Positions 1 to 30,319 of a stretch of 35,975 nucleotides of DNA are shown one piece after another. The notes beneath the pieces were generated by a model. The model had not been told where the DNA came from, made no database searches, and saw nothing but the letters and a program-made list of their open reading frames with translations. This DNA comes from Luminiphilus sp. (lineage in GTDB: Bacteria > Pseudomonadota > Gammaproteobacteria > Pseudomonadales > Halieaceae), in assembly GCA_012270045.1 (NCBI GenBank), contig JAAXJC010000222.1:1-35975 (forward strand), given 5' to 3'. A program made the translations under genes and the position numbers. How positions within the stretch are numbered: position 1 is the first letter of the stretch; every line of letters starts with the position of its first letter.

Positions 1-53
1 TCCCGACACCCAGGTTCGAAGCCTGGTGCTCTATCCAGCTGAGCTACGGGCGG
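1..53 (-). tRNA. tRNA-Arg (anticodon TCG), 3' part cut by window start
   Basis: Read on the minus strand this starts with a 7-nt acceptor strand CCGCCCG, then TA, a D arm of GCTC/GAGC, a 5-bp anticodon stem CCAGG/CCTGG and the loop CTTCGAA, giving anticodon TCG (reads CGA, Arg). The variable loop GTGTC and the first bases of the T stem follow; the rest, including the T loop and the 3' acceptor strand, lies outside the window. The body closely matches the usual bacterial tRNA-Arg pattern. Position 1 reads as C where G is more common, so the 5' end could shift by a base. Confidence 0.93.
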
Positions 54-386
54 AGGGTTGGCAAGCCTAGGGATACTGGGCCTTGTAGTCAAGCATTGCG
101 GCCTTTCTGGGCCTTGCAACGAGGCTTTGGTTCGGCCGCCAATGAGGGGCTCTGCGGTCCTGCGTCGCCACAGAAACTTCCGGCCCACATCAGGAATCCA
201 CCTTCACCGCTGTAATAAATCCCGGCGAGCCGCGACTACCCTCCAGATCCGGTACCTAAACCGACTATCCGCAGGAAGCAGCCACGGTGGGGAGCCACAT
301 TGAATTTGACGATAAAAAGCAACCTTTCGGCCATTGGCGCATCAGATACGGGGAAGCTAGGATGGCTGCACCTGTGGAGAGCGTCT
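54..386. other. Intergenic region between tRNA-Arg and the ECF sigma gene
   Basis: This stretch of about 330 bases holds no convincing gene. The open frame at 58–303 starts beside the tRNA, has no good ribosome binding site and resembles no family I know. The region serves as upstream DNA for the tRNA (minus strand) and for the sigma gene (plus strand). Its one clear element is the promoter-like motif at 211–238. The remainder would be a leader of roughly 140 nt before the sigma start codon. Confidence 0.6.
211..238 (+). promoter_or_regulatory. Predicted ECF-sigma promoter, copy 1 (autoregulatory)
   Basis: The element is TGTAATAAATCC, six variable bases, then GCCGCGACTA. The same two blocks with the same spacing recur at 1206–1233 before the RiPP precursor gene. 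The spacing between TGTAA and CGACTA (17 nt) fits a -35/-10 pair for an ECF sigma factor. Copy 1 lies 148 nt before the preferred sigma start, so the sigma factor probably transcribes its own gene. That the local sigma factor recognises it is inferred from position and duplication. Confidence 0.72.
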
Positions 387-1016
387 ATGCCCGAAACCCC
401 CAGCCATCAAAGCGTCTCATCGCCACACCCGGCGGCGCTTCTGGATAATGAGGAACTGTCAGCACTCCGTGAACCCATGCTGGCCTTTGCCACGGCAAAA
501 TTGGGTGATCGCAGCAAGGCAGAGGATTGTGTGCAGGACGCGCTGCTGGGGGCCCTGCAGTCCGCCAGAAATTTTCGTCGCCAGAGCACTCTGAAAACCT
601 GGGTGTTCGCAATCCTACGCAACAAAATCGCGGATGCCCTGCGTCTGCAACAGCGCTTCGCCGAGGCCGACGCCATAGTTGATGGCAGCGAGGCCGCCGA
701 GAGCTTTTCCGGTCTTTTTGATGATGCCGGTCACTGGCATGACGACACCCTGCCCCAGCCCTGGGCGACCCCGGATAAAACACTGGAGAGCAGCGAATTG
801 GGGACTATTGTCGACCAGTGCGTTGAGCTGCTCCCGGCCCAGCACGCCGAGGTGTTCCTGATGCGGGAAGTTCTTGAACTCGACACGGATTCCATCCTCA
901 AGGCGACAGGTCTCAGTCAATCCAATCTGAACGTTTGCCTGTATCGAGCGAGAATGCGTCTGCGGGAGTGCCTGAGCCTCCGCTGGTTCAACGCCGGCGA
1001 GGAATCAATCACATGA
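387..1016 (+). CDS. ECF-type RNA polymerase sigma factor controlling the downstream RiPP locus
   Basis: This 209-aa protein has a sigma-70 region 2 at about residues 25–90, with the AEDCVQDALLGAL helix and the STLKTWVFAILRNKIAD core-binding stretch. Region 4 lies at about 140–200 and ends in a helix-turn-helix (ILKATGLSQSNLNVCLYRARMRLRE). The linker between them is long and rich in acidic and Trp residues (LFDDAGHWHDD, LPQPW), as in the small ECF group modelled as TIGR02943. I start it at ATG 387, which has GTGGAGAG upstream; an in-frame TTG at 300 would add 29 residues of poor character. It overlaps the anti-sigma gene by 4 nt (ATGA). It probably directs transcription from the elements at 211 and 1206, in answer to a metal or redox signal released through the anti-sigma factor. 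Confidence 0.9.
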   Translation: MPETPSHQSVSSPHPAALLDNEELSALREPMLAFATAKLGDRSKAEDCVQDALLGALQSARNFRRQSTLKTWVFAILRNKIADALRLQQRFAEADAIVDGSEAAESFSGLFDDAGHWHDDTLPQPWATPDKTLESSELGTIVDQCVELLPAQHAEVFLMREVLELDTDSILKATGLSQSNLNVCLYRARMRLRECLSLRWFNAGEESIT

Positions 1017-1210
1017 TGAACTGTCGCGAAGCCACTGAACTGATGTCCCGGGCCCGGGAAGAGAAACTGCCCCGCGGTCAGCGCATGGGCCTGCGCCTGC
1101 ACACGCTGATCTGCGCCGGATGTCGGCGCACCCGGGAGCAATTTGAGCTGATCGGGCAATTGGTGCGGGGTAAGCCACAAAAACAAAAAAATAATTCAAA
1201 AAACCTGTAA
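1013..1210 (+). CDS. Small zf-HC2 anti-sigma factor
   Basis: This 65-aa protein carries the zinc-finger anti-sigma pattern: an early Cys (MMNCREATELMSRAREE), then H-x3-C-x2-C in LHTLICAGCRRT. In zf-HC2 (ZAS-type) anti-sigma factors these residues bind zinc, and the helix next to them holds the sigma factor until metal or oxidant loosens the site. No membrane segment follows; the tail is short, basic and polar, so this is a soluble cytoplasmic form. The start ATG overlaps the sigma stop (ATGA), the usual arrangement for translational coupling of a sigma/anti-sigma pair. Its TAA stop lies inside the promoter element for the next gene. The signal it senses cannot be read from sequence; thiol-reactive metals or oxidants are the likely class. 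Confidence 0.85.
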   Translation: MMNCREATELMSRAREEKLPRGQRMGLRLHTLICAGCRRTREQFELIGQLVRGKPQKQKNNSKNL

Positions 1211-1233
1211 TAAATCCTCTGCTGCCGCGACTA
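1206..1233 (+). promoter_or_regulatory. Predicted ECF-sigma promoter, copy 2, before the RiPP precursor
   Basis: TGTAATAAATCC, six variable bases and GCCGCGACTA match the copy at 211–238 at all 22 block positions, with no match in the spacer. It overlaps the anti-sigma stop codon and ends 46 nt before the precursor ATG. A start near 1240 would give a short leader containing an 11-nt inverted repeat (1253–1263, AACGG-T-CCGTT) and the ribosome binding site AAGGAGA. This suggests the precursor gene has its own strong, sigma-dependent promoter. Confidence 0.75.
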
Positions 1234-1279
1234 ACTCTTTGAATACGGATCCAACGGTCCGTTACACAAGGAGAACGTT

Positions 1280-1633
1280 ATGAAGAATAGGATTTCACCC
1301 CTCAACGCCCTCGCCTCCAGCAGCCTGGTGGCTCTAGCCCTGGCCACCGGTGCCAGCACCGCCCTGGCGGATAACCCCTTTGCGGCAACCAGCCTGGATG
1401 CGGGCTACCAGGTGGCAGATCACCACAAGAGCAAGGAAGCCAAGTGTGGCGAAGGCAAGTGTGGCGGCGAGGCAGACCACAAATCCGCCGAGGGCAAATG
1501 CGGTGAGGGCAAGTGCGGCGCCGAAGAGGGTAAAAAAGCCGCCGAGGGCAAATGTGGCGAAGGTAAGTGCGGCGCCGACCACAAAGCCAAGGAAGCCAAG
1601 TGTGGCGAGGGCAAGTGCGGTAGCGCTGCCTGA
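1280..1633 (+). CDS. hvfA: HvfA/bufferin-like Cys-rich RiPP precursor peptide (four paired KCG repeats)
   Basis: This 117-aa protein starts with a Sec-type signal peptide: a basic start, a hydrophobic core at about 10–25, and a likely cut after ALA at residue 30. After a spacer come four repeats of the form (A/G)KCGEGKCG, with Cys at 56/61, 74/79, 92/97 and 108/113. The linkers are rich in Lys, Glu, Asp and His. In the HvfA and bufferin families, Cys in EGKCG motifs are converted by a DUF692 iron enzyme to copper-binding oxazolone/thioamide or thiooxazole groups, and the product goes to the periplasm. The next genes here encode that enzyme and its partner, which supports the call. The ATG has AAGGAGA 5–10 nt upstream. 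The exact modification and the bound metal are inferred from relatives. Confidence 0.9.
   Translation: MKNRISPLNALASSSLVALALATGASTALADNPFAATSLDAGYQVADHHKSKEAKCGEGKCGGEADHKSAEGKCGEGKCGAEEGKKAAEGKCGEGKCGADHKAKEAKCGEGKCGSAA
1430..1626 (+). repeat. In-gene tandem repeats encoding KCGEGKCG units
   Basis: The 3' half of the precursor gene repeats variants of AAGTGTGGCGAAGGCAAGTG four times, with period 54, 54 and 48 nt. The repeats differ at synonymous positions (tgt/tgc, ggc/ggt) while the encoded Cys spacing is kept, so selection acts on the protein. The repeats open long frames on both strands that are shadows, not genes. Confidence 0.85.
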
Positions 1634-1644
1634 CGTCTCATCGC

Positions 1645-1670
1645 CAGGGGACGGGCTGACCCGTCCCCTG
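1645..1670 (+). terminator. Perfect 11-bp hairpin between precursor and enzyme genes (attenuator or RNA-stability element)
   Basis: CAGGGGACGGG pairs exactly with CCCGTCCCCTG across a CTGA loop, 12 nt after the precursor stop. Only CGTTATTCC follows instead of a T run, so it is more likely a partial terminator or a block to 3' exonucleases than a full stop. Either would leave more precursor mRNA than enzyme mRNA, as suits a peptide needed in large excess over its modifying enzyme. Confidence 0.75.
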
Positions 1671-1721
1671 CGTTATTCCTACAACCTCCCCTTAGTTCCC
1701 CGGGCACCCAGAGAGCTCCCC

Positions 1722-2612
1722 GTGACACCAGCGAGTAACACCACAGTACCTCATTCGATCGGTCTCGGCCTGCGCCGTAGCCTGGTGGAGGAATGGCGTG
1801 ACCTGGAGCAGCAGGGCTACGGAAATCAGCCCCGCCCCGAATTTATTGAGGTGACGCCGGAAAACTGGATGGGGCTGGGCGGCAAGTTTCGCCGCAACCT
1901 GGCCTATTTCACCGAACGCTATCCGGTGTATGCCCACGGCCTGTCACTGTCCATCGGCGGGCCCACCGAATTGGACATGGCGTTCGTCGATCGCCTGAAA
2001 ACCTTTCTGGATGACTGTGGCGTCATTGAGTTCAGTGAGCACCTCAGCTACTGCACCGACCACGGCCACCTCTACGACCTCATGCCCATCCCCTTCACCG
2101 AAGCGGCGGTGCAACGGGTCTGCGAACGTATTCTTCGGGTTCAGGATCGTCTCAAGCGACAGATCGCACTGGAAAACGTGTCGTTCTATGCCATGCCGGC
2201 ACCGGAGATGACCGAGGCCGAATTTATCTGTGCCGTGCTTGAACGGGCAGACTGCAAGCTGCTGCTGGACATCAACAACGTCTGGGTCAACAGCGTCAAC
2301 CACGGCTATGACCCCAAGGCATTCATAGAGGCCATGCCGGGAGCAAGGGTGGCCTATCAACATATTGCAGGGCACCTGCAGATATCCGACCGGCAGATCA
2401 TCGACACCCACGGCACCGACGTCAGCGATCCGGTGTGGGATCTGCTCGCCCATGCCCAGGCCACCCTGGGTCCCCGGCCCACGGTGCTGGAGCGGGACGG
2501 CAATTTCCCGCCCCTCAGCAGCCTGCTGGGTGAGCTGGCGGAGATGGGCCACATCCTGAATGGCACTGCCCGAGGGACTCCCGGGGACGCGCCTGCAGAG
2601 ATAACGGTCTGA
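1722..2612 (+). CDS. hvfB: DUF692 multinuclear non-heme iron oxidase (MNIO), HvfB type
   Basis: This 296-aa TIM-barrel enzyme belongs to the DUF692 family (relatives MbnB, TglH, HvfB), which uses two or three iron ions and oxygen to rebuild Cys residues in precursor peptides. Family marks seen in order are FIEVTPENW, FSEHLSYC, ALENVSFY, LLLDINNVWVN, AYQHIAGH, IDTHGTDVSDPVWDLL and LERDGNFP; their His, Glu, Asn and Asp residues are the expected iron ligands. The frame stays open back through the precursor gene, but that part is a shadow. GTG 1722 is the sensible start, just before the conserved SIGLGLR region, with GAGAG upstream. It overlaps the next gene by one base (TGATG). It should act in the cytoplasm on the precursor before export. 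Confidence 0.9.
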   Translation: MTPASNTTVPHSIGLGLRRSLVEEWRDLEQQGYGNQPRPEFIEVTPENWMGLGGKFRRNLAYFTERYPVYAHGLSLSIGGPTELDMAFVDRLKTFLDDCGVIEFSEHLSYCTDHGHLYDLMPIPFTEAAVQRVCERILRVQDRLKRQIALENVSFYAMPAPEMTEAEFICAVLERADCKLLLDINNVWVNSVNHGYDPKAFIEAMPGARVAYQHIAGHLQISDRQIIDTHGTDVSDPVWDLLAHAQATLGPRPTVLERDGNFPPLSSLLGELAEMGHILNGTARGTPGDAPAEITV

Positions 2613-3403
2613 TGCAGAGCCAACAGGAACTGCAGGAGATGCAGCTGGCCTTTGCCGCCGCGATACGCGATCCCGATCTGGATACCCACTTTCCCAATGT
2701 GTCGCCGGAGCAGTTGGCGGTTTATCGAGAACTGTTCTGGGACAACCTGAAAGCCCTGCTGGATTCCGCCTGCCCAGTGGCCCGGGACGTACTGGGCCAG
2801 GACACCTGGAACATGCTACTGGGCCGGTTCTGGAAGGAGCATCCGGCGAGCACCCCGGAATACACCCGCATGCCCTTCGAATTCGCCGACTGGATTGCCG
2901 GGCAAAACCTGGAGGACGGGGGACTGCCACTCTGGCTGGCAGAACTGATCCGCTGGGAGGTCGCTGAACTCGGGGCTATGTTCGCGCCAGAGAGCAAAGA
3001 CGCGCCGCCCACCGGATCGGATATCAGCGCCACGCACATTGCACCCTCTCTGCAGTTGCACGCCTTCGCTTGGCCCGTGCACCGCATCGGCAAGAACTGG
3101 CAACCCAGCAGCCCGGAGACCACCTGCCTCGCCTGCTACCGCACGGCAGAACTGGATATTGCCTTCATGGAACTGACGCCGCTGGGAACCGCCCTGCTGG
3201 AACTGCTGCTGGCAGAGCCCGAGGCGGGTCTGGCGGGCGCCACCCGACAACTCGCCGACGCCATGGGGACCGATGCAACTGCCCTGGAGACTTCCATGGC
3301 GCCGTTTATCGACGACCTGTACGAGCGCGGAGTACTGGGCAACACCCATCGAAAGGGCGGAATGGAACACAGCCCAGCAATCGACACATCGGAGAACCCG
3401 TAA
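2612..3403 (+). CDS. hvfC: DUF2063 MNIO partner protein, HvfC type
   Basis: This 263-aa protein begins with the DUF2063 domain (about residues 5–95): LQLAFAAAIRDP-like helix, then VYRELFWDNLKALLDSACPVARDVLG and the RFWKEHPASTPEYTRMPFEF stretch. The domain was once called DNA-binding, but in MNIO pathways such proteins recognise the precursor and present it to the iron enzyme. A less conserved C-terminal half (about 130–250) ends in a winged-helix-like segment that resembles RiPP recognition elements. Its ATG overlaps the DUF692 stop, and its stop overlaps the start of the next gene (TAATG), so the three genes are translationally coupled. Its role as precursor-binding partner is inferred from family and context. 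Confidence 0.86.
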   Translation: MQSQQELQEMQLAFAAAIRDPDLDTHFPNVSPEQLAVYRELFWDNLKALLDSACPVARDVLGQDTWNMLLGRFWKEHPASTPEYTRMPFEFADWIAGQNLEDGGLPLWLAELIRWEVAELGAMFAPESKDAPPTGSDISATHIAPSLQLHAFAWPVHRIGKNWQPSSPETTCLACYRTAELDIAFMELTPLGTALLELLLAEPEAGLAGATRQLADAMGTDATALETSMAPFIDDLYERGVLGNTHRKGGMEHSPAIDTSENP

Positions 3404-4002
3404 TGACCTGGCTACTGAAACTGCAATCCCTGCTGGACAGCACCCGACGGATCGATTTTCTGGCACCCCTGGCCCTGCGACTCTATCTGGCGCCCGTCTT
3501 TTGGATGGCCGGCAGCAACAAACTGGGCGACATTGAGAGTACCGCGGCCTGGTTTGGCAATCCGGACTGGGGCCTGGGCTTACCCGCGCCACTGCTGATG
3601 GCCTGGCTGGCCTCGCTCACCGAAGCCGGTGGTGCCATCTTGCTGCTGCTGGGCCTGGGAGTACGCTTCATTGCCCTGCCCCTGATGTTCACCATGATCG
3701 TCGCGGCCACCACCGTACACTGGCACAACGGCTGGCTGGCCATTGCCGAAGGCCCCGGCAGCCTGTTTGCCACCGAACGCACCATCGCCGCTACCGAACG
3801 CCTGCATCGGGCCAGGCCCATTCTCCAGGAGCACGGCCACTACAGTTGGCTGACCGAACACGGCAATTTTGTGGTACTAAACAACGGCATCGAGTTCGCC
3901 ACCACCTATTTCGTCATGCTGCTGGCCCTGTTCTACCTGGGTGCCGGCCGCTGGGTCAGCGTCGATTACTGGGCCTGGCGGCGCATCGATCCCGCACACT
4001 AG
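3403..4002 (+). CDS. DoxX-family membrane protein of the RiPP operon
   Basis: This 199-aa protein has DoxX-type transmembrane segments at about residues 20–40 (LALRLYLAPVFWMAGSNKL), 65–85, 88–108 and 165–185. Between the third and fourth lies a long charged loop (about 110–160) with several His residues and two HGH/EHG-like clusters. DoxX proteins are common last genes of HvfABC, buf and gold-induced (gig) loci; their role is not settled, with electron transfer to quinone or peptide handling at the membrane proposed. The TAATG overlap with the upstream gene shows it belongs to the operon. The extended loop is longer than in the plain 130-aa DoxX protein at 31931. Confidence 0.85.
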   Translation: MTWLLKLQSLLDSTRRIDFLAPLALRLYLAPVFWMAGSNKLGDIESTAAWFGNPDWGLGLPAPLLMAWLASLTEAGGAILLLLGLGVRFIALPLMFTMIVAATTVHWHNGWLAIAEGPGSLFATERTIAATERLHRARPILQEHGHYSWLTEHGNFVVLNNGIEFATTYFVMLLALFYLGAGRWVSVDYWAWRRIDPAH

Positions 4003-4147
4003 AAGAGGCGGCCCGTAACGCCAGCGCTTCGTGTCGCCATTGACCCGGGACGCCAGCAGTGGTGTGCTTCCCGAACACACTCAGGACATACCATCACAGC
4101 GGCGGGCCGATAGACCCCGCTGCGGTTAGCACCCCAAGGTCATTGCC

Positions 4148-4792
4148 ATGCCACGACTGCGCGAAGTACCCCGAGCCGATGCCGACCCGATCGCCCTCAG
4201 CATGTACGACATGCTGTTTGGCCAACGCGACCCCGTCGCAGAGCCGGGCACGGCCACCGGCACCCCGGGCAACTGGTGGACGGTGTTCGCCCTGGTACCC
4301 GACTGCCTGAAACATGCCCTGCAGGGTTTCCAGTTTTATCGCGATCCCAAACGCATCCTGGACCCGCAGCTGCGGGAGCTGGGCCAGACCCGGGCCGGCT
4401 ATGCGCGCGGCTCCCAGTTTGTCTTTTCCCAACACTGCAAATCCTGCCGGTCGGTGGGGCTGACTGACGAGCAGATCAGCGCTATTCCCCACTGGTCGGT
4501 CAGCGATGGGTTCACCGCGGTGCAGCGCGCGGTACTGGCCTACACTGACGCGCTGGTGCTGGAGGGGGGCCGGGTGCCGGATCCGGTCTTTGCCGCCCTC
4601 AAGGAACATCTGTCGGATGAGGCTATTTTGGAGCTCACCTACGTGACCACCCTCTACGACATGCACGCCACCATGGCCCGGGCACTGCGCCTGGAGTACG
4701 ACGATGTCGACGAGCGCATTGTCGAAGTGCCCGCCCCCAGCGAGGCCGCCAACCGGGACGTGATGGCCGTTGTCGACGGAGATCAAAACTGA
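4148..4792 (+). CDS. Carboxymuconolactone decarboxylase (CMD)/AhpD-like family protein
   Basis: This 214-aa protein has the all-helical CMD fold: a helix with NWWTVFALVPDCLKHALQGFQFYR at about 39–65, then QLRELGQTRAGYARGSQFVFSQHCKSCRSVGLTDEQI at about 75–115, which holds a C-x2-C pair preceded by His. In AhpD-like members this pair is a redox-active dithiol used in peroxide or thiol chemistry. A second helical block (about 125–190) ends in LTYVTTLYDMHATMARAL. It lies 145 nt after the DoxX gene on the same strand and overlaps the following VOC gene by one base, so the two are co-translated. Whether they belong to the RiPP regulon is open. Its substrate is unknown. Confidence 0.78.
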   Translation: MPRLREVPRADADPIALSMYDMLFGQRDPVAEPGTATGTPGNWWTVFALVPDCLKHALQGFQFYRDPKRILDPQLRELGQTRAGYARGSQFVFSQHCKSCRSVGLTDEQISAIPHWSVSDGFTAVQRAVLAYTDALVLEGGRVPDPVFAALKEHLSDEAILELTYVTTLYDMHATMARALRLEYDDVDERIVEVPAPSEAANRDVMAVVDGDQN

Positions 4793-5316
4793 TGGCTTAT
4801 CACCACCTGGCCATGGCGGCCACCGATATGACCGCTATCCATCATTTCTACGAGACCGTGCTGGGCTTTGAACTGGCCAAGGTAGAGGTTGCCCCGGTGC
4901 CGGAGGGGGGCTGGGCGAAGCACTTTTTCTACCGCATGTCGCCCGACGACACGGCATTCATTGCCTTTTGGGAAATGCACGACGTGCCCGGGGCCGACAA
5001 GGTCGAAACCTCGCTGTCAAAGGCCGCCGGCGTACCCGACCAGATCAACCACATCGCCTTTCAGGCCACCGATCGGGAAGATTTACAGCGCCGATGCAAG
5101 GAATGGCAGGCCGCCGGGTTATCCGTGCTAGAAATCGACCACAACTGGTGCCACTCCATCTATACCAAGGACCCCAACGGCAACCTGGTGGAATTTTGCA
5201 CCACCACTGGCACCCTGTCCGCCGATGACCGTGCCTATGCGCTGCAGGCGCTGGGCACCGACGACCTTCCTTTTTCCCCGGACCCCGCCGCCATCACGGT
5301 ACACAAGCCCCAGTAG
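4792..5316 (+). CDS. VOC-family (glyoxalase/dioxygenase fold) protein
   Basis: This 174-aa protein has two beta-alpha-beta-beta-beta units of the vicinal oxygen chelate fold. The first starts with YHHLAMAATDMTAIHHFYETVLGFEL at about 2–28; the second with INHIAFQATDREDLQRRCKEWQAAG at about 85–110 and closes with SIYTKDPNGNLVEFCTT at about 125–142. Likely metal ligands are His4 or His5, the His of INHIAF and the Glu of VEF, as in glyoxalase I and extradiol dioxygenases. A tail of about 30 residues follows the fold. It overlaps the CMD gene by one base (TGATG). The substrate cannot be named from sequence. Confidence 0.8.
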   Translation: MAYHHLAMAATDMTAIHHFYETVLGFELAKVEVAPVPEGGWAKHFFYRMSPDDTAFIAFWEMHDVPGADKVETSLSKAAGVPDQINHIAFQATDREDLQRRCKEWQAAGLSVLEIDHNWCHSIYTKDPNGNLVEFCTTTGTLSADDRAYALQALGTDDLPFSPDPAAITVHKPQ

Positions 5317-5554
5317 GCGACGCCTGAGTCCCCACCGGGTGCACTGACCGGGGCCCGAAGCAGATTCTCGGCGGGCGGCTCAGCGGCTATCGATCAGGCC
5401 TCGCTGCCGAAGCCGCGGATATTTCGCCCATCATCTGTCCAGGTTGCTTTGCGGCTTTTTGCTCCAATTAGGATTTTTTCTGCATATTAAATTGCGTTTT
5501 GAAATCTATATTGCGGCAAAATAGTGTAAACCGTTGACAGGAAAGGATTAAGGC

Positions 5555-7540
5555 ATGGGCTCCAATACGTGGTGGGCTTACTTTAACCCCAATAATCTCT
5601 CAGTGAAGGCGCTGCTGACCCAGGCCGCGGTCTGGATCGTGCTGGGCAACCTGACTGTGCTCGGCGCCTTTGTGGTGAGCAACTCCCTGGCCAATACAGC
5701 TCGGCTGGAGAGCGAGCAGGCCCGGGTTGCCAGCGACAAGGTCGGGGCCATCGTCAATGAGGTTTTCCAACTGGCCGCCATCGAGGAGCGACTTCTGCGG
5801 CTCAAAGACCTGTCACTGGCCGAGGCACACGGCCAACTACTGAACAATGCCGCCGTGGATGTCGATGAGTTAAGCGTTCTACTCCAGGGCAACCCCGAGT
5901 TGGAGAACATCAGCGCCGAACTGGCCACCGCATTGAACAGCTACCGAGACGCCATGACCGCCCTGGTGACCACCCAGGAACGGGTGGGCGTGTCACAGGA
6001 CACCGGCCTCACCGGCGAACTGGGGGCCGCCTCCGCCGCCATTGAGTACAACACCAATGCCATTGGCGATACCCGGCTCAGCATGCTGCACCGCCGGCTT
6101 CAGGGCTCAGAGCGGGGTTATACCCAATCCCGGGATCCCGACTTCCTCATCCCCTTTGAAAAGTCCCACCAGCGCTACGCAGGGGCCCTTGCCAAACTGA
6201 CGATTGAGCCCAAGCTGCAGACTGAGATCACAGCCGAACTCAGCCGTTATCTGGAGGCCATGCGCAATCTGGTCACACAAGAGACCGAACTCGCCAACAA
6301 CCTGGCCACTCTGCAGGACATTGCCGGGCGCGTGCCGCTGCTGGTGGCGGACATTCGTACTATCACCGCCGCTGAGACAGCGGCCGCCCAGAGCCGGGCA
6401 GCACGAACCGGCGACACCGCTCGCTGGATTGTGATCGGGTTATCCGTTTCGGTGGCGGCCTTTCTTACCGTCGGTGCGTTCTGGCTGCGCCGGCGCATTG
6501 CCCCGCCCCTGGAGCGGGCGGCCAAGGTCTGCAGCGCCATCGCCGAAGGCAAGCTGGATGCCGAGCGCCCGGATATGGAGCGCCCGGATGAAATAGGACA
6601 ACTGGAGCAGGCCCTGCATGCCATGGCGCTACGCCTGCGTGGCATTGTCGGAGATGTCCGGGAGGGCTCCGGCATCATGTTTCAGGGTGCCAGTGAGATA
6701 TCCCAATCCAACGAACACCTCTCCAGCCGCACGGAACAGAGCGCGGCCAGCCTTGAGGAAACCGCCTCAAGCATGGAGCAAATGACCGTCACGGTAAAAC
6801 AGACGGCAGACAACGCCCTGAAGGCCAGCCGCCTTGCCAGCGAGTCCCGGGCCAAGGCCCAGGAAGGTGGCGATGTGGTGCGTGAGACGGTTCAGGCCAT
6901 GGGCACCATTGCCCAAACCAGCGAGCAGGTGGAAAGCGTCATCGGCGTGGTCGATGGCATCGCCTTCCAGACCAACCTCCTCGCCCTCAATGCGGCAGTG
7001 GAAGCGGCCCGGGCGGGCGAGGCCGGACGCGGCTTTGCCGTGGTCGCCTCAGAGGTCCGGGCCCTGGCCCAACGCTCCGCTGAATCGGCCAAGGAAGTGC
7101 GTCAGCTGATTTCTGTCTCCACCGACAGCGTCAAGGCCGGTGAAACCCTGGCCGAGCGCTCAGGTCAATTCCTCGCCGAGATCATCGACGATACCGAACA
7201 GACCGCGTCCCTGGTGAAGGAAATCGAAAGCGCCACCCGGGAACAGAGCGAGGGCATTGAGCAAGTCAACGCTGCCATCATCGAGATGGACCAGGTCACG
7301 CAACAAAACGCCGCCATGGTGGAGGAAGCCGCGGCGGCGGCTCGGGAAATGGAAGATAAGGCCCGCAGCCTCAATGACCTGATGGCCTTCTTTGATTTCT
7401 CCGAGCAGGGACAGGTCGCATTGGCGGCAGAGCAACCGTCACAGCCCGCAAAGGCGCTGTCGAACCAGTCGACGACACCGGCAGCCCCCCGAACGCCAGT
7501 GGCCGCGGCTGCCAAGACCGCCGTGTGGGAAGCCTTCTAA
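5555..7540 (+). CDS. Methyl-accepting chemotaxis protein (transmembrane chemoreceptor)
   Basis: This 661-aa receptor has a first membrane helix at about 20–43, a periplasmic helical sensor to about 287, a second helix at about 288–311 (WIVIGLSVSVAAFLTVGAFWL), a HAMP domain at about 312–365 and a cytoplasmic signalling rod to about 620. The hairpin tip that contacts CheA/CheW is plain (GIAFQTNLLALNAAVEAARAG). The sensor is a four-helix-bundle type with no recognisable ligand motif. The protein ends in VWEAF after a linker rich in Ala, Pro and Thr, which fits the W-x-x-F tether that recruits CheR/CheB. AGGAAAGG lies before the ATG. It stands alone, with no che or flagellar genes near. Confidence 0.93.
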   Translation: MGSNTWWAYFNPNNLSVKALLTQAAVWIVLGNLTVLGAFVVSNSLANTARLESEQARVASDKVGAIVNEVFQLAAIEERLLRLKDLSLAEAHGQLLNNAAVDVDELSVLLQGNPELENISAELATALNSYRDAMTALVTTQERVGVSQDTGLTGELGAASAAIEYNTNAIGDTRLSMLHRRLQGSERGYTQSRDPDFLIPFEKSHQRYAGALAKLTIEPKLQTEITAELSRYLEAMRNLVTQETELANNLATLQDIAGRVPLLVADIRTITAAETAAAQSRAARTGDTARWIVIGLSVSVAAFLTVGAFWLRRRIAPPLERAAKVCSAIAEGKLDAERPDMERPDEIGQLEQALHAMALRLRGIVGDVREGSGIMFQGASEISQSNEHLSSRTEQSAASLEETASSMEQMTVTVKQTADNALKASRLASESRAKAQEGGDVVRETVQAMGTIAQTSEQVESVIGVVDGIAFQTNLLALNAAVEAARAGEAGRGFAVVASEVRALAQRSAESAKEVRQLISVSTDSVKAGETLAERSGQFLAEIIDDTEQTASLVKEIESATREQSEGIEQVNAAIIEMDQVTQQNAAMVEEAAAAAREMEDKARSLNDLMAFFDFSEQGQVALAAEQPSQPAKALSNQSTTPAAPRTPVAAAAKTAVWEAF

Positions 7541-9491: not shown

Positions 9492-10364
9492 ATGACGCTT
9501 TCCGTCGCCCGGCCCCTGAAACTCCCTACGATTGTTCTGGCCATCATCCTCAACGCAGTTACCGCCGCTGCCCGCTGCGGGGAGGTTGACACCGCCAACT
9601 TCGACTCGGAAACCCTGGATAAACCCTACCCCTACAGTATCTATATTCCTGACGAAGCTCCCGCGAATGGCAGTACCTACCCCGTGGTTTACCTTTTACA
9701 CGGCTCCTTTGGCTCGGCAACAGACTGGCTGGAACAGGGCGCCCTGGAGGCCACAGCCGATGCGCTGATCCGCGAGGGCATCATTCCACCGACAGTGGTC
9801 GTGATGCCAGGCTGCCAAAGCTGGTGGCTGGACGGGCACAACGAGGCTGCCGCTACCGCCTTCCTCAGTGACCTCATCCCCCACATCGAGTCAACGTATC
9901 CTGTGAGCAAGGAGCGGTCCGGGCGCTTTGTTGCCGGCTTGTCCGCCGGCGGCTACGGCGCCACCCGTTTCGCCCTGATGCATCCGGAGCGCTTTGCCGC
10001 CGCCGCGGCCCTGAGCCCCGCGACCTATGTGCCCCTGCCACCGGCCAACTCCTCCGCCTATCGACACCCGGCGTTCCTCGATGGGGCGGGCGACTTCGAC
10101 CAGGGGCTATGGCAGCGAAACAACTTCACCGCCTACTGGGATGACTACCGCGACAGCGGCCTGACCGTGGCCTTTTATATTAACAGCGGCGACCACGACG
10201 AGTTCGCCATTGCCTACCACGCCGCGGTGCTTTATGAGACGCTGCGCCAGCATCAACCCGACGCCGTCGAACTGCGCATTGTTGACGGCGCCCACAACTG
10301 GGAGGTCTGGCGCAGCACCCTCCCCGACACGCTGACCTTTTTATTGAGCCACTACCGACCGTGA
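9492..10364 (+). CDS. Secreted esterase-D-type alpha/beta hydrolase
   Basis: This 290-aa protein has a signal peptide of about 27 residues and an alpha/beta-hydrolase fold of the PF00756 putative-esterase family (esterase D, ferulic acid esterases, antigen 85). The stretch PVVYLLHGSFGSATDW at about 63–78 forms the oxyanion region. The nucleophile Ser near residue 152 lies in AGLSAGGYGA, and the other triad members are probably the Asp of SGDHDEF and the His of DGAHNWEVW. It should cleave carboxylic esters outside the inner membrane; the substrate is unknown. Its stop overlaps the PPK2 start by 4 nt (GTGA), an odd partner for a secreted hydrolase. Confidence 0.85.
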   Translation: MTLSVARPLKLPTIVLAIILNAVTAAARCGEVDTANFDSETLDKPYPYSIYIPDEAPANGSTYPVVYLLHGSFGSATDWLEQGALEATADALIREGIIPPTVVVMPGCQSWWLDGHNEAAATAFLSDLIPHIESTYPVSKERSGRFVAGLSAGGYGATRFALMHPERFAAAAALSPATYVPLPPANSSAYRHPAFLDGAGDFDQGLWQRNNFTAYWDDYRDSGLTVAFYINSGDHDEFAIAYHAAVLYETLRQHQPDAVELRIVDGAHNWEVWRSTLPDTLTFLLSHYRP

Positions 10365-11170
10365 ACGCACCGTCACTCGACAGACTCCCCGACACCGGCA
10401 TCGAACTGGCGTCAAAGAAAGCCTACCGCAACCGGCTGCGTCGCCTGCAGGTGCAACTGCTGAATATCCAGCAAGCCCTGTTTCGCAGCGGCGGACGGGC
10501 GGTGCTCGTTTTCGAAGGCTCGGACGCCAGCGGCAAGGGCGGCACCATCCGCCGCATCACCGAATTGATGGATCCCCGGGGCTATCGGGTCCATCCCGTC
10601 GGTCAACCCAACCCGGAAGAACAGGGCAGGCACTATCTTTGGCGGTTATTTCGCCACCTGCCGCCGGCGGGCGGGGTCGCAATATTCGATCGCAGCTGGT
10701 ACGGCCGAGTACTGGTCGAGCGGGTGGAGGGTTTTGCCCGGCCCGCCCAATGGCAGCGGGCGTACCGAGAGATCAATGAGCTGGAACGCTGGCTGGTGGA
10801 CGACGGTGTGCGACTGTGTAAGTTCTATCTCAGTATCGACCGCGAGGAGCAGGGCAAACGCTTTCGGGCCCGCCTCGATGACCCGCTGAAGAACTGGAAA
10901 TTGACCGACGAAGACCTTCGCAACCGAGCGCGCTGGGATGACTACCAGGATGCCGCCAACCAAATGTTTAGCGAAACCCATACCGAAACAGCGCCCTGGC
11001 AGCTGATCAATGCCCAGCGCAAGCGGCCGGCTCGAATTGCGGTAATGCAGCGGATTGTCGATGTGCTGGGTAGAGACCTGGATACCTCGCCACCTGCGGT
11101 AGACGCAGACTCCCTGGCGGCGGCCCGAGAGGCTTTGGGCCCGGCAACCGACGAGGCAGCACAGGAATGA
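10361..11170 (+). CDS. ppk2: Polyphosphate kinase 2 (PPK2 family)
   Basis: This 269-aa protein transfers phosphate between polyphosphate and nucleotides. The Walker A loop is GSDASGKGG at about 53–61, the Walker B/lid region is FDRSWYGRVLVERVEGF at about 109–125, and the family stretch DDPLKNWKLTDEDLRNRARWDDYQDA lies at about 165–195. It is one domain, the usual short PPK2 length. The wording around HYLWRLF and WYGRVLVERVEGF reminds me of the AMP- or NMP-phosphorylating classes more than the classic class I enzyme, but I would not fix the class. The GTG start overlaps the esterase stop by 4 nt. PPK1 is encoded 7 kb away, so the cell holds both enzyme families. Confidence 0.92.
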   Translation: MNAPSLDRLPDTGIELASKKAYRNRLRRLQVQLLNIQQALFRSGGRAVLVFEGSDASGKGGTIRRITELMDPRGYRVHPVGQPNPEEQGRHYLWRLFRHLPPAGGVAIFDRSWYGRVLVERVEGFARPAQWQRAYREINELERWLVDDGVRLCKFYLSIDREEQGKRFRARLDDPLKNWKLTDEDLRNRARWDDYQDAANQMFSETHTETAPWQLINAQRKRPARIAVMQRIVDVLGRDLDTSPPAVDADSLAAAREALGPATDEAAQE

Positions 11171-18243: not shown

Positions 18244-20448
18244 TTACTGCCTCTTGCGTCGCACCGAGGGCCGGCGCATTTTGGTCTTGGGATGGCGGGG
18301 CACTTTACCGGTACTCAGGTACCTGTGAATGCTTTCCTGGGACCGGATGTTGGCCGCCTTTTTCTTTGGCTTGGCATAGCAGTTTTCCTGGTCAGCATCG
18401 AGGACGCGGCCCTTGACGTTGTCATACCACTGCTGGTCCAGGATGTGCTGCAGGGTTTCCTGGGCGGCGGTATCGCGCACTGGGCACAGCACCTCCACCC
18501 GGAAGTCCACGTTACGGGTCATGAGGTCTGCAGAGCCCAGGAAGTAATCCGGCTGACCGCGGTTATGGAACACATAAACCCGCGGGTGCTCCAGATAGCG
18601 ATCGACAAGACTGATGGCGGCAATGTTGTCCGACAGGCCCTTTACCCCGGGCAACAGGGAGCACATACCCCGAATGATCAGTCGCACCTTGACCCCGGCC
18701 TGACTGGCTTCGTACAGCTTGCGGGTGAGCTGCTGGTCCACCACGTTGTTGCACTTCAACAGGATCTCCGCGTGGTAGCCCTCCCGGGCATGGCGGATCT
18801 CCCGGTCGATCATCGCGGTGATGCCGGCTCGGGAATTGTGGGGAGAGACCAGCAGGGAGCTGTAGTCGGGACGGCGGTAGGGGTATTTCAGGAAATCAAA
18901 GACCCGGGCCAGATCACGACCGATGTCCTGGTCAAAGGTCAGCAGGGAAAAGTCCGTATACAGACGCGCCGTCTTTTCGTTGAAGTTACCGGTGCCCACG
19001 TGGCTGTAGTAGCGTAGCTCCTGATCTTCCCGCCGCTCGATCAGAAAGACCTTGCTGTGCACCTTGAGCCCCTGGATACCAAAGGTCACCGCGATACCGG
19101 CGTCGGTCAGACGCTGGGCCCAGGCGATATTGGCCTGCTCGTCAAAACGTGCCGCCAATTCCACAACCACCTGCACGTACTTGCCGTTGTCCTTGGCGTT
19201 AAGCAGGGCATCCACAATCCGGGAATTTCGGGCCACCCGATACAGGCAGATACGGATGGACACCACATCGGGGTCCAGCGCCGCCGTCTTGAGCACGTCG
19301 ACGATGTAATCAAAGGGATGATAGGGAAAATACAGCAGGACATCCTGTTCCCGTATTTTCTCGAAAATACTTCCCCCCTGCTCCAGGCGCGGAATCGGTA
19401 TGGTTGGCAGCGGCTTGAATTCCAGGTAACGCGGGCCGGCGTTGGGGAAATCGATAAAGTCCTTGGAGTTGTGATAGCGGCCGCCCGGGATCATGCTGTC
19501 GTATTTTCCGAAACCAAAGCGTTTGCGTAAATAATCGAGCAGGCGCGACGGCATGGTTTCATCAAATACAAAGCGCACCGCATCCGCCCGCTTGCGCTGC
19601 TTCAGGCTCACCGCCATTTTCTCGATCAGGCTCTCGTTGATGCCCTCGTCGATCTCGAGCTCGGAATCCCGGGAGAACTTGAAGCAGTAGGCCGATACCG
19701 ATTCAATCTCAAAGACGCCCCGGAACACCTGGGCCAGGCAGGCCCGAATGATGTTATCGAGCACGATGTACACCCTGCCCTGACGCTTGCCGCTACTGGG
19801 GATCTCGATGAATCTACCCAGGCGATTGGTGGGCACCTCCAGCAGCGCGTATTGGGGGCCGGTACTGGTGGCAATGTCCACGGCAAGATACAGGGACTCA
19901 TCGGCCAGGTGGGGAATGGGTTGTTCGTCCCTGAGCAGAATGGGCTCCAGTTCCGGCAATACTTTGTCGGTGAAAAATGCCTGCACAAAAGCCAGCTGCT
20001 CCCGTTGCAACTGCTGCTCATTGATCAGGTAAACGCCGCGGCGGGCAAGTTCCCGCAATGATTTTGCGTAAACCAGCTCAAATTCCTGCTGCAGCGCCTT
20101 GACCCGATACTGAATCGCAGCCAGTAGCTTTTTGGCCCGTTGGCGCTGCCCTCCCGACGATACGGAAATCATGCGACGGACTTCGGCGACCCGAACCCGG
20201 AAAAACTCATCGAGGTTATTGGAAAATATGCCCAGGTAGCGCACCCGCTGTATCAGCGGTACGCCGGGATCATCGGCCTCTTGCAGCACCCGGGCGTTGA
20301 AGCTTAACCAGCTCAGTTCCCGGGGGTAGGTGTTGGGCTCGTCCAGGTCGGCCAGCAGTTCTTCAATAGGTGTCTCGCTCAGGGGTAACCCGGCGGGCTC
20401 CTCGGGTTTCTGGGCGTCTTCTGGCTGTAGCATCCTGGACCCGGCCAC
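18244..20448 (-). CDS. ppk1: Polyphosphate kinase 1
   Basis: This 734-aa enzyme makes polyphosphate from ATP through a phosphohistidine. The N-terminal domain starts at YPRELSWLSFNARVLQEA (about 41–58) with FSNNLDEFFRVRVAEVRR; the head domain follows, then two phospholipase-D-like catalytic domains. The autophosphorylated His is in KVHSKVFLI near residue 460, with YYSHVGTGNFNEKTARLYTDFSL after it; the second essential His is in YVFHNRGQPDYFLGSADLMTRNVD near 625. The length is slightly above the usual 690 because of tails at both ends, the last being basic. GTG 20448 lies 5 nt after the usp stop; an ATG at 20433 is also possible. It forms an operon with usp and yedI. Confidence 0.95.
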   Translation of the reverse strand: MAGSRMLQPEDAQKPEEPAGLPLSETPIEELLADLDEPNTYPRELSWLSFNARVLQEADDPGVPLIQRVRYLGIFSNNLDEFFRVRVAEVRRMISVSSGGQRQRAKKLLAAIQYRVKALQQEFELVYAKSLRELARRGVYLINEQQLQREQLAFVQAFFTDKVLPELEPILLRDEQPIPHLADESLYLAVDIATSTGPQYALLEVPTNRLGRFIEIPSSGKRQGRVYIVLDNIIRACLAQVFRGVFEIESVSAYCFKFSRDSELEIDEGINESLIEKMAVSLKQRKRADAVRFVFDETMPSRLLDYLRKRFGFGKYDSMIPGGRYHNSKDFIDFPNAGPRYLEFKPLPTIPIPRLEQGGSIFEKIREQDVLLYFPYHPFDYIVDVLKTAALDPDVVSIRICLYRVARNSRIVDALLNAKDNGKYVQVVVELAARFDEQANIAWAQRLTDAGIAVTFGIQGLKVHSKVFLIERREDQELRYYSHVGTGNFNEKTARLYTDFSLLTFDQDIGRDLARVFDFLKYPYRRPDYSSLLVSPHNSRAGITAMIDREIRHAREGYHAEILLKCNNVVDQQLTRKLYEASQAGVKVRLIIRGMCSLLPGVKGLSDNIAAISLVDRYLEHPRVYVFHNRGQPDYFLGSADLMTRNVDFRVEVLCPVRDTAAQETLQHILDQQWYDNVKGRVLDADQENCYAKPKKKAANIRSQESIHRYLSTGKVPRHPKTKMRRPSVRRKRQ

Positions 20449-28082: not shown

Positions 28083-29339
28083 TTGAACTTGCCATCCAAC
28101 GCCGCGGCAGCCCCGGCCGGGGATAGCCGGTACGAGCGGCTGTCGGAGGCGTTTTTCGCCTGCCGGCGACAGTCCCTGACTCTCTGCGCCGGCCTGTCGG
28201 CGGAAGATCACATGGTTCAGGGAGCGGCCTTTGCCAGCCCACCCAAATGGCACCTGGCCCATACCACATGGTTTTTCAGCACCTTTTTGCTGGCACCACG
28301 GGCTCTCAGCCCAGAGGTCCCTGACAGCTGGCACACCCTATTCAATTCCTACTACAACGGCATCGGCACACCCCATGCCCGGGCGGAACGGGGCATCCTC
28401 AGCCGCCCACCCCTGGACGATGTAATCACCTGGCGGACCCAGGTGGATCACCAGATACAGGCTCTGCTTGACCAGGGCGCCTTCACGGATAGCGAGCTTG
28501 GGCTGCTGGAATTAGGCATCCAGCACGAGATGCAGCACCAGGAACTGATACTCACCGACCTGCTCTACAGCTTCTCCCGAAACCCGTCCCATCCGGTGTT
28601 CGATCCTGACCCCGTTGCCCCACGACCGCCGGCACCACCCCTGAGCTGGCATGAGTTTGATGGCGGCCTGATTGAGGTGGGTGCCCCGGCAGAGGGATTT
28701 TCCTTCGACAACGAGCACCCCCGCCATCGCCAGTTCCTGGAGCCCTTCGCGCTCGCAGGTCGCCTGGTAACCAACCGTGAGTATCAGGCATTCATGGCCG
28801 ATGGCGGCTACCAGGATCCCCAATGGTGGCTGTCAGAAGCCTGGGACACCCTGCGCAGTGAGGACTGGCAACGGCCCCTGCACTGGCAGGATGACAACCA
28901 TGTTTTCAGCTTGCAGGGCATCCAACGCATCGATGGCAATGCCCCGGTGAGCCACCTGTCGGGCTACGAGGCCGACGCCTTTGCCCGCTGGTCGGGCTGT
29001 CGGTTGCCGACAGAATTCGAGTGGGAGCACGCGGCCCAACGACTGGAAGTTGGCACTGAACCCGCGGGTCTGTCCCCTCGCGGATCGGCCTCTGGCTGGT
29101 TCGGCGATGTTTGGCAGTGGACCCAATCCGCCTATGCGCCCTATCCCGGATTCAAACCCGATCCCGGCGCGGTGGGCGAGTACAACGGTAAGTTCATGAG
29201 CAGCCAGTGGGTGCTGCGCGGTGGGTCTTTTGCCACACCCCGGGCGCAGCAGCGCATCAGTTACAGGAATTTCTTCTACCCACGGGATCGGTGGCAGTTC
29301 ACCGGCCTGCGACTCGCCAAAACCCTTGTCCCCGCGTGA
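28083..29339 (+). CDS. egtB: EgtB, hercynine sulfoxide synthase (ergothioneine biosynthesis)
   Basis: This 418-aa iron enzyme joins the sulfur of Cys or gamma-Glu-Cys to hercynine. An N-terminal DinB-like domain (about 17–155) gives three iron-binding His: one in PPKWHLAHTTWFF (57–63) and two in QHEMQHQELI (about 147–156). A C-terminal FGE/sulfatase-modifying domain (about 190–415) follows, with FALAGRLVTNREY, GCRLPTEFEWEHAA, WFGDVWQWTQSAY and WVLRGGSFATP. A TAG stop lies two codons before the TTG at 28083, so TTG is the first possible start; no ATG occurs before residue 44. It overlaps egtD by 4 nt. No egtA or egtC is near, so Cys may be used directly. Confidence 0.92.
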   Translation: MNLPSNAAAAPAGDSRYERLSEAFFACRRQSLTLCAGLSAEDHMVQGAAFASPPKWHLAHTTWFFSTFLLAPRALSPEVPDSWHTLFNSYYNGIGTPHARAERGILSRPPLDDVITWRTQVDHQIQALLDQGAFTDSELGLLELGIQHEMQHQELILTDLLYSFSRNPSHPVFDPDPVAPRPPAPPLSWHEFDGGLIEVGAPAEGFSFDNEHPRHRQFLEPFALAGRLVTNREYQAFMADGGYQDPQWWLSEAWDTLRSEDWQRPLHWQDDNHVFSLQGIQRIDGNAPVSHLSGYEADAFARWSGCRLPTEFEWEHAAQRLEVGTEPAGLSPRGSASGWFGDVWQWTQSAYAPYPGFKPDPGAVGEYNGKFMSSQWVLRGGSFATPRAQQRISYRNFFYPRDRWQFTGLRLAKTLVPA

Positions 29340-30319
29340 ACAAAAGCCCTGACAACCACATCAGACCGCCTAATCTGGTGTTTATCGACACCTCCAGGCC
29401 CGCCGTTGACGAAACCCGGGAAGTACAGGCATCCCTGGGCGATCAACGACCCAGCCTGTCCCCCAAGTTTTTTTATGACTCCCGGGGCTCGGAACTGTTT
29501 GAAGCCATTACCGAGCTACCCGAGTACTACCTGACCCGGGCCGAGGCCCAGATCTTTGAGCAACAGCTTGAGGACATCATTACAACCCTGGGTCCGGTGG
29601 ATGTGGTTATTGAGCCCGGGGGCGGCAGCTGCAGCAAGGTCCGGGTGCTCCTGAACCCCATGCAACCCCGTGCCTTTGTTGCCATCGACATCGCCGGGGA
29701 CTTCCTGCAGCAGGCGGCATCGGAGGTCGCCCGTGACTGGCCGGAACTGGAGGTAACCGCGATCGCGGCAGACTTCACCCGCAGCTGGGATTTTACCGAC
29801 GCCCTGCCCGCCGGGCGGCGGCTGGTGTTTTACCCGGGCTCCACCCTGGGGAATTTTGATCCCGAGGCGCAGGCCAGCTTCCTGGGGCAGCTTGCGTCCG
29901 TGGCGGGGTCAGACGGCGGCATCCTGCTCGGCGTCGACCTCCACAAGGACAGCAGCGTGCTGCACGCCGCCTACAACGACGCGTCCGGTCTGACCGCGGC
30001 CTTCAACCGCAATATGCTCAATGTGGTAAACGCCAGAACCGGCGCCGACTTCAGACCGGACGAGTGGCAGCACGAAGCCCGCTACAACCCGACCCGACGC
30101 CGGATTGAAATGGATCTGATTGCCAGCACCCGGCAAGCGGTAACCGTTGGGGGACGCGAGTTTATCTTCGAGTCGGGGGACGCCATTCGCACCGAGCACT
30201 CCTGCAAGTTCACGCTCGACGACCTGCAGCAGTTGGCCGCATCGGCACAGATGGCGTTAAGCCATCACTGGCTGGATTCAAGGGGCCTGTTTTGCCTGGC
30301 CCTGCTGGAACCGGCCTAG
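29336..30319 (+). CDS. egtD: EgtD, histidine N-alpha-trimethyltransferase
   Basis: This 327-aa enzyme methylates histidine three times with S-adenosylmethionine to make hercynine, the EgtB substrate. Family marks are LSPKFFYDSRGSELFEAITELPEYYLTRAE at about 42–71, the SAM-binding IEPGGGSCSKVRVLL at about 94–108, VAIDIAGDFLQQAA, VFYPGSTLGNFDPEA near 165–180, and ILLGVDLHKD near 200. GTG 29336 overlaps the egtB stop (GTGA); the open frame goes further back only through egtB sequence. Its last 4 nt overlap the end of the convergent aminotransferase gene. Confidence 0.93.
   Translation: MNKSPDNHIRPPNLVFIDTSRPAVDETREVQASLGDQRPSLSPKFFYDSRGSELFEAITELPEYYLTRAEAQIFEQQLEDIITTLGPVDVVIEPGGGSCSKVRVLLNPMQPRAFVAIDIAGDFLQQAASEVARDWPELEVTAIAADFTRSWDFTDALPAGRRLVFYPGSTLGNFDPEAQASFLGQLASVAGSDGGILLGVDLHKDSSVLHAAYNDASGLTAAFNRNMLNVVNARTGADFRPDEWQHEARYNPTRRRIEMDLIASTRQAVTVGGREFIFESGDAIRTEHSCKFTLDDLQQLAASAQMALSHHWLDSRGLFCLALLEPA

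Follow-up and report, generated by a model that had tools for sequence, protein, structure and literature searches.

Peptides of the HvfA type raise two questions in Luminiphilus sp.: what switches their genes on, and how did those genes come to stand where they do? We analysed a stretch of 35,975 nucleotides, hereafter the window, which is one entire contig (C166; JAAXJC010000222.1) of a genome of 3.36 Mb in 225 contigs (GCA_012270045.1). Six plus-strand genes at 387-4002, in the order sigma factor, anti-sigma factor, precursor, hvfB, hvfC and hvfX, very probably form an EGKCG-type captophorin (oxazolin/HvfA) locus under a switch of the meningococcal sigmaE-MseR type, and we hold this with good confidence as part of a whole explanation that takes in promoters, chemistry, export, copper binding and probable horizontal gain.

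Taking sigma release, chemistry, export and copper binding from characterised relatives, we propose that stress would loosen the hold of the cytoplasmic zinc anti-sigma protein on the extracytoplasmic function (ECF) sigma factor, and that the freed sigma would transcribe from two near-identical promoters, that of its own gene (positive feedback) and that of hvfA. HvfB with HvfC may then convert as many as eight Lys-Cys sites in HvfA into 5-thiooxazoles by oxidation, and the peptide, exported via its signal peptide, would sequester Cu(I) in the periplasm with the assistance of HvfX. The least certain parts of this explanation are the inducing signal (copper, HOCl or another thiol stress) and the route of acquisition. 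Judged from the DNA, what is new here is the candidate dedicated double promoter and the insertion at a defined site; the locus is otherwise known in kind.

Gene content and family assignment

The genes and candidate promoters are as follows.

210..238, plus strand: candidate ECF promoter 1 (GTAATAAAT, 12 nt, CGACTA), 5' of the sigma gene; 29-nt repeat and exact long-pattern site
387..1016, plus strand: ECF sigma factor; Pfam Sigma70_r2 and r4_2; TIGR02943 at 207.7 bits, cut-off 162.2
1013..1210, plus strand: soluble zinc anti-sigma (ZAS) protein of 65 aa with C4/H30/C34/C37; NF052368 at 60.4 bits, cut-off 50
1205..1233, plus strand: candidate ECF promoter 2, 5' of hvfA, its first bases overlapping the anti-sigma gene end; 29-nt repeat and exact long-pattern site
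1280..1633, plus strand: hvfA-type precursor of 117 aa, with an N-terminal signal-like stretch (by eye), its eight Cys all in KCG motifs that form four pairs; NF050137 (KCGExKCG_twice) at 98.3 bits, cut-off 19.5, four stretches
1722..2612, plus strand: hvfB, MNIO (DUF692) precursor maturase; PF05114; NF003818 at 374.6 bits, cut-off 360; PDB 3bww at E 8.3e-62
2612..3403, plus strand: hvfC, DUF2063 partner with NGO1945-type C-terminal domain; PF09836 and PF22106; NF050145 at 178.5 bits, cut-off 142; PDB 3dee at E 2.9e-5
3403..4002, plus strand: hvfX, DoxX-type membrane protein; PF07681; NF050144 at 230.8 bits, cut-off 80

An earlier note, made from the sequence without database searches, had read this region as an HvfA-type copper-peptide locus that brings along an ECF sigma factor and a soluble zinc anti-sigma factor of its own. 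Profile searches bore out all six genes and their families. Curated NCBIfam cut-offs were passed by five of the proteins and by the repeat domain of the precursor. The model comparison that the note had proposed was thus favourable for the DUF692/HvfB and DUF2063/HvfC models; the precursor passed NF050137 and fell short of the stricter NF050188, and it gave no Pfam match up to E 0.1. The anti-sigma protein scored 20.8 bits against Pfam zf-HC2, slightly under the cut-off of 22.2. The genes do lie on one strand, as had been noted, but overlap holds for three of the five junctions only (sigma/anti-sigma, hvfB/hvfC and hvfC/hvfX), the other two being gaps of 69 nt (anti-sigma to hvfA) and 88 nt (hvfA to hvfB).

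The probable sigma/anti-sigma switch and its candidate duplicated promoter

The sole Cys and His residues of the 65-aa anti-sigma protein, whose gene overlaps the end of the sigma gene, are C4, H30, C34 and C37. MseR of Neisseria meningitidis has its ZAS residues at the identical four positions, and its Cys residues were shown to matter (PMC2893595). On these sequence grounds the pair is of the meningococcal sigmaE-MseR type. The likeness extends to the neighbouring genes: the autoregulated meningococcal operon NMB2140-NMB2145 contains, besides the sigma factor and MseR, three genes whose function was unassigned at the time and one DoxX-like gene, behind a promoter of similar core and spacing (PMC2893595). 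In Haemophilus, RpoE2 is held by the soluble 67-aa ZAS protein HrsE and governs an operon that joins DoxX to COG3767, UPF0276 and DUF2063 genes, an operon itself likened to the neisserial cluster (PMC7907618). These two precedents mean that the same gene set under the same type of switch was already known (PMC2893595; PMC7907618). The families of H. influenzae hvfABCX (oxazolin) are those found here, but its sigma pair is described as sitting elsewhere, in the msrAB region. In Neisseria, the DoxX-like gene is NMB2140 and rpoE-mseR is NMB2144-NMB2145, within one operon described as polycistronic, whereas here the sigma and anti-sigma genes come first, DoxX comes last and a second candidate promoter precedes hvfA.

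The two candidate promoters form a repeat in which 23 of 29 bases are equal between 210-238 and 1205-1233. We addressed the question of the regulon by pattern searches of the genome. The long pattern TGTAATAAA-N12..18-CGACTA has two exact sites in the 3.36 Mb, which are the two candidate promoters described here, and the reversed-pattern control has 0. As in the sigmaE-MseR type, the sigma gene appears to be preceded by a promoter of its own in which a GTAA-like and a CGTC-like core are separated by 17 nt, and the core GTAA-N17-CGWC fits the neisserial sigmaE consensus GTMAGBWTT-12/13-CGTCTAAH at the 12-nt spacer of that consensus (PMC2893595). For four further genes of the meningococcal sigmaE regulon a common promoter was not found (PMC3240639). 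Further targets were sought by allowing up to three mismatches, which gave 10 sites where the reversed control gave 62, so that no weaker site is credible.

The core was then compared between loci that have a sigma gene, a ZAS gene and a KCG precursor (hereafter sigma-linked) and 138 loci lacking the sigma gene, 128 of which yielded a precursor, 119 with at least 150 nt upstream of it. Six of the seven other sigma-linked loci have it no more than 250 nt upstream of the precursor, or five of six when L182 and L184, identical there, are merged; 2 of the 119 sigma-less loci have it. Alternative spacers from 10 to 24 occurred in only 0-1 sigma-linked and 0-2 sigma-less loci. The Fisher value for 5/6 against 2/119 is 5.3e-7, which is descriptive only, since the spacing had been noticed on some of the counted loci and the sigma-less loci come mostly from one family and one HvfB scan. 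A Marinobacterium locus with a DoxX gene and no nearby sigma match (L142) has the same core 5' of its precursor, a hint that a sigma factor encoded elsewhere might control it, as in Haemophilus.

The inducing signal

What would such a switch respond to? Tentatively, and with less than even confidence, we suggest a portable, host-independent copper-response module of about 4 kb: six genes and two dedicated promoters, with a sigma factor that would control nothing else in the genome and would work wherever the unit landed, the switch being thrown by direct action of copper, or of copper-caused thiol stress, on the anti-sigma zinc site. A somewhat less likely course is that oxidative or chlorine stress, not copper, is the main trigger, the sigma-ZAS pair sensing thiol oxidation and the peptide serving as a redox or thiol buffer whose copper binding is incidental. 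For example, HOCl raised the Haemophilus hvf-DoxX genes in an RpoE2-dependent manner (PMC7907618), the Cys positions of MseR match those of the redox-sensing RsrA (PMC2893595), and related proteins of Microbulbifer went undetected with added copper (PMC12538549). However, the characterised EGKCG peptides bind Cu(I), and a methionine sulfoxide reductase connection, which is a feature of this sigma type in Neisseria and Haemophilus, did not appear. Meningococcal sigmaE also controls msrA/msrB; in the present genome the one PMSR-family (msrA-type) gene lies at C60:517-978, GTAA-N17-CGWC is absent from the 2478 bases (2.5 kb) around it, and the exact, mismatch-tolerant and relaxed genome pattern searches gave no match on contig C60. 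Judged by promoter motif, control of msr genes is not apparent in this genome.

Distribution, insertion site and origin

Relatives of HvfB are common in the family, occurring in 67 of the 140 genomes drawn from it (this one included) and in 25 of 28 genera, but the sigma-linked form is not. No sigma or ZAS match was found in the 60 loci fetched of the 63 family loci at at least 47% identity, several of whose contigs end near the locus; DoxX was found in one of these 60, plus a weak second. Both sigma and ZAS were present in three of 80 named loci (L130, L182 and L184). Our own set aside, the 41 best sigma matches in 369 class genomes were considered and 40 of them fetched; four had sigma, ZAS and KCG precursor (L278, L281, L286 and L305). 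In L281 and L286 the precursor and DoxX stand by the sigma-ZAS pair with no HvfB in the fetched stretch, and the maturase may lie elsewhere in those genomes. In six further loci (L274, L275, L277, L279, L285 and L309) this sigma-ZAS type is accompanied by a more remote MNIO (35-42%), and no match to the precursor was obtained. Two metagenome-assembled records titled Klebsiella pneumoniae (L172 and L177) also contain an hvf locus; L172 falls among Alcanivoracaceae rows in the HvfB tree, so the titles may be wrong.

The closest counterparts in content are L278 and L305, from genomes of the class, and L130, from a metagenome-assembled genome, in each of which the six genes (sigma, ZAS, A, B, C and X) are gathered in a few kb. 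Their identities to the window are 52-56% for HvfB, 67-69% for HvfX, 36-42% for sigma and 24-38% for HvfC. Their orders differ: sigma-ZAS-A-B-C with divergent X in L305, X-sigma-ZAS-A-B-C in L278 and A-B-C-X-sigma-ZAS in L130. Among the relatives examined, none had a gene order identical to that of the window. A further comparison is with Bufferin 1 (DUF2282) loci (Caulobacter sigmaF reportedly responds to heavy metals). These loci likewise join sigma and anti-sigma genes to an MNIO locus, but there the anti-sigma is described as NrsF and the precursor as DUF2282-type (PMC12452194); with a ZAS protein and a precursor lacking a Pfam match, the present locus is not of the Bufferin 1 kind.

Around the six genes, three further features bear on origin.

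1..53, minus strand: tRNA gene truncated at the contig edge (5' portion; tRNA-Arg by congeners), adjoining the cassette on the left; Rfam RF00005 at 28.3 bits (gathering 29), 3' end missing
96..4134, no strand: cassette, approximate extent with edges uncertain by tens of bases; blastn with six congeners
4148..4792, plus strand: carboxymuconolactone-decarboxylase-family (CMD) gene, right flank outside the cassette; PF02627

ARAGORN made no call for the truncated tRNA, but window positions 1-56 are identical to the tRNA-Arg(TCG) end of six congeners. Nine CMD regions were fetched, from these six congeners and three other genera. By blastn, similarity to the congeners stops at 56-95 on the left and restarts at 4135-4148 on the right. 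The tRNA-Arg(TCG) and the similarity on the CMD side are 182 to 290 nt apart in all six congeners, where the cassette is absent; in the window about 4.1 kb, cassette included, separates these flanks. In the three other genera, one CMD region has a tRNA-Arg(CCT) at the site and two have no tRNA. A contaminating contig was considered and rejected, the contig being one of the genus: polyphosphate kinase 1 (PPK1) has a 95% identical counterpart in congener G034, six congeners have the CMD gene at 77-82% identity, and G007, G009 and G016 each carry the two on a single contig.

Site and gene distribution make horizontal gain of the cassette, as a self-regulated unit beside tRNA-Arg, probable. That it was instead ancestral and lost from the other species of the genus, with no transfer, seems to us quite improbable. 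Such a history would agree with the many HvfB relatives in the family, with a cassette G+C equal to that of the rest, with the finding of no integrase or transposase among the 28 open reading frames scanned with Pfam, and with the 182-290 nt of other sequence at the congener site, which taken by itself is compatible with replacement or loss. Edge repeats of a mobile element were likewise sought and not found, there being no common direct word of at least 7 bases between 51-140 and 3996-4160 (inverted repeats were not sought). Against loss, no HvfB match occurred in 48 other congeners scanned, 14 of them at least 90% complete (the family draw held one more congener with a distant HvfB match, 38%), and the 60 family loci have neither sigma nor ZAS. 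Furthermore, a single clade of the window HvfB with twelve family members was rejected (approximately unbiased test, p 0.00015), in a test chosen after the first tree had been seen. The nearest row in the HvfB tree is L130, weakly (83/17), and a grouping of the window HvfB with L130 and L278 was not rejected (p 0.067).

The precursor and its proposed modification

The eight Cys of the precursor are at residues 56, 61, 74, 79, 92, 97, 108 and 113, each in a KCG motif, with intervals of 5-13-5-13-5-11-5. The paired spacing described earlier (5 within a pair, 13-13-11 between) is therefore correct, and the idea of up to eight modifiable Cys is judged right from the sequence. The description as four KCGEGKCG units needs amendment: there are four KCG pairs, but two of the eight motifs are EAKCG. 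The four pairs may form four two-Cys metal sites, as the note suggested, but the paired spacing did not prove to be a departure from the family layout. We considered 181 loci (60 from the family, 80 named, 40 sigma-anchored and the window) and obtained precursors from 136 of them through similarity to the window precursor, 133 being distinct and 101 of these having at least two KCG. At least one KCGExKCG pair was present in 97 of the 101, four pairs in 25 and eight KCG in 21, in a search biased toward paired precursors by the use of the window precursor as query. Two-Cys cassettes are also published for the precursors of Microbulbifer mmrABC (bulbicupramide), which have five to eight Cys depending on the strain, lose 4H per modified Cys and bind Cu(I) (PMC12538549); the repeated Cys of the Haemophilus precursor are described as six. 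Together, the 97 of 101 and the published cassettes make the paired layout ordinary for the family. In the excerpts available, no sigma, anti-sigma or DoxX is described for Microbulbifer mmrABC. A leader motif was tried as a mark of the sigma-linked type and dropped: its strict form occurs in 11 of 136 precursor rows and its looser form in 99 of 136, including six of the eight sigma-linked, so it has no distinguishing value.

HvfB retains the motifs HGLSLS, ENVS, LLLDINN, NSVNHG, HIAGH, DTHG and ERDGNFPP. Its closest solved relative is PDB 3bww, and the counterparts of the activity-essential HvfB residues N175, D242 and H244 are kept, by a manual count along the 3bww alignment that assumes a one-residue numbering offset. 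The match of HvfC to PDB 3dee (E 2.9e-5) stands beside a chance-looking match to a designed protein. MNIO-DUF2063 pairs modify the EGKCG peptides of Haemophilus, Neisseria, Fontimonas and Microbulbifer, and 5-thiooxazole is now assigned to fontiphorin, gonophorin and oxazolin, superseding oxazolone/thioamide (PMC12668002; PMC13419390). The gonococcal ngo locus, source of gonophorin and its 5-thiooxazoles, resembles the present one in its EGKCG repeats. From the presence of HvfB and HvfC we infer 5-thiooxazole on the Cys of the window precursor as well. The earlier note had offered oxazolone/thioamide or thiooxazole chemistry; the second stands and the first has been reassigned to 5-thiooxazole (PMC12668002; PMC13419390). 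It is highly improbable that the eight paired Cys bind metal unmodified, in the manner of a metallothionein, with the MNIO acting elsewhere: a Cys-rich peptide with a signal-like start whose modification is here deduced would allow it, but MNIO-DUF2063 pairs modify EGKCG peptides in those four genera, and all eight Cys lie in KCG motifs.

The gap between hvfA and hvfB holds one further feature.

1645..1670, plus strand: hairpin with an 11-bp stem and weak T tail, a possible mRNA-end or attenuation element; not significant

Terminator-like sites in 1-5600 number 5, against 4.5 expected in shuffles. A special RNA in this gap was considered and rejected: despite the strong hairpin, folding of the region does not surpass that of shuffles (z -0.81).

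Points that weigh against the explanation

Several observations count against the explanation as a whole. The precursor scores 70.6 bits against the HvfA equivalog NF050188 (cut-off 95), giving the same domain without an equivalog call, and its motifs are split into six EGKCG and two EAKCG. HvfC is divergent, at 24-38% identity to the sigma-linked L130, L182, L184, L278 and L305 and at best 37-39% among 390 genomes of the order. As to the promoter, the sigma-linked L305 is the one locus lacking the motif; the relaxed core GTAAT-N15..17-CGWCTA has 4 sites in the genome against 7 for its reversed control, and the short core GTAA-N17-CGWC has one additional site in the window, on the minus strand at 20899. 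The two relaxed-core sites outside the window lie within long open frames. The relaxed-core counts and the additional short-core site leave the weight solely with the long pattern and its position. On the signal, meningococcal sigmaE expression was unaltered by oxidants (PMC2893595), and the related Microbulbifer proteins were undetected with copper added or not, their authors being hesitant on a protective role (PMC12538549). On origin, cassette and remainder have the same G+C (0.61 vs 0.611) and HvfB stands on a long branch in its weak pairing with L130. Transfer as a single block is read from the site, HvfB being the sole protein placed on a tree and no relative of the same order having been found.

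Elsewhere in the window

Polyphosphate kinase genes of the PPK2 type (10361-11170, plus strand) and the PPK1 type (18244-20448, minus strand) are about 10 kb or less apart, and a universal stress protein gene adjoins the latter. At 28083-29339 (plus strand) a sulfatase-modifying-factor domain is combined with DinB_2, a combination known from EgtB-like sulfur-histidine enzymes; the next long open reading frame is at 29207-30319.

Implications

The locus would place the EGKCG copper peptide of an environmental bacterium under a dedicated sigma-ZAS switch. Its promoter signature may be used to flag similar loci, and its compact form may suit it to tests of whether copper or an oxidant is the inducing signal.

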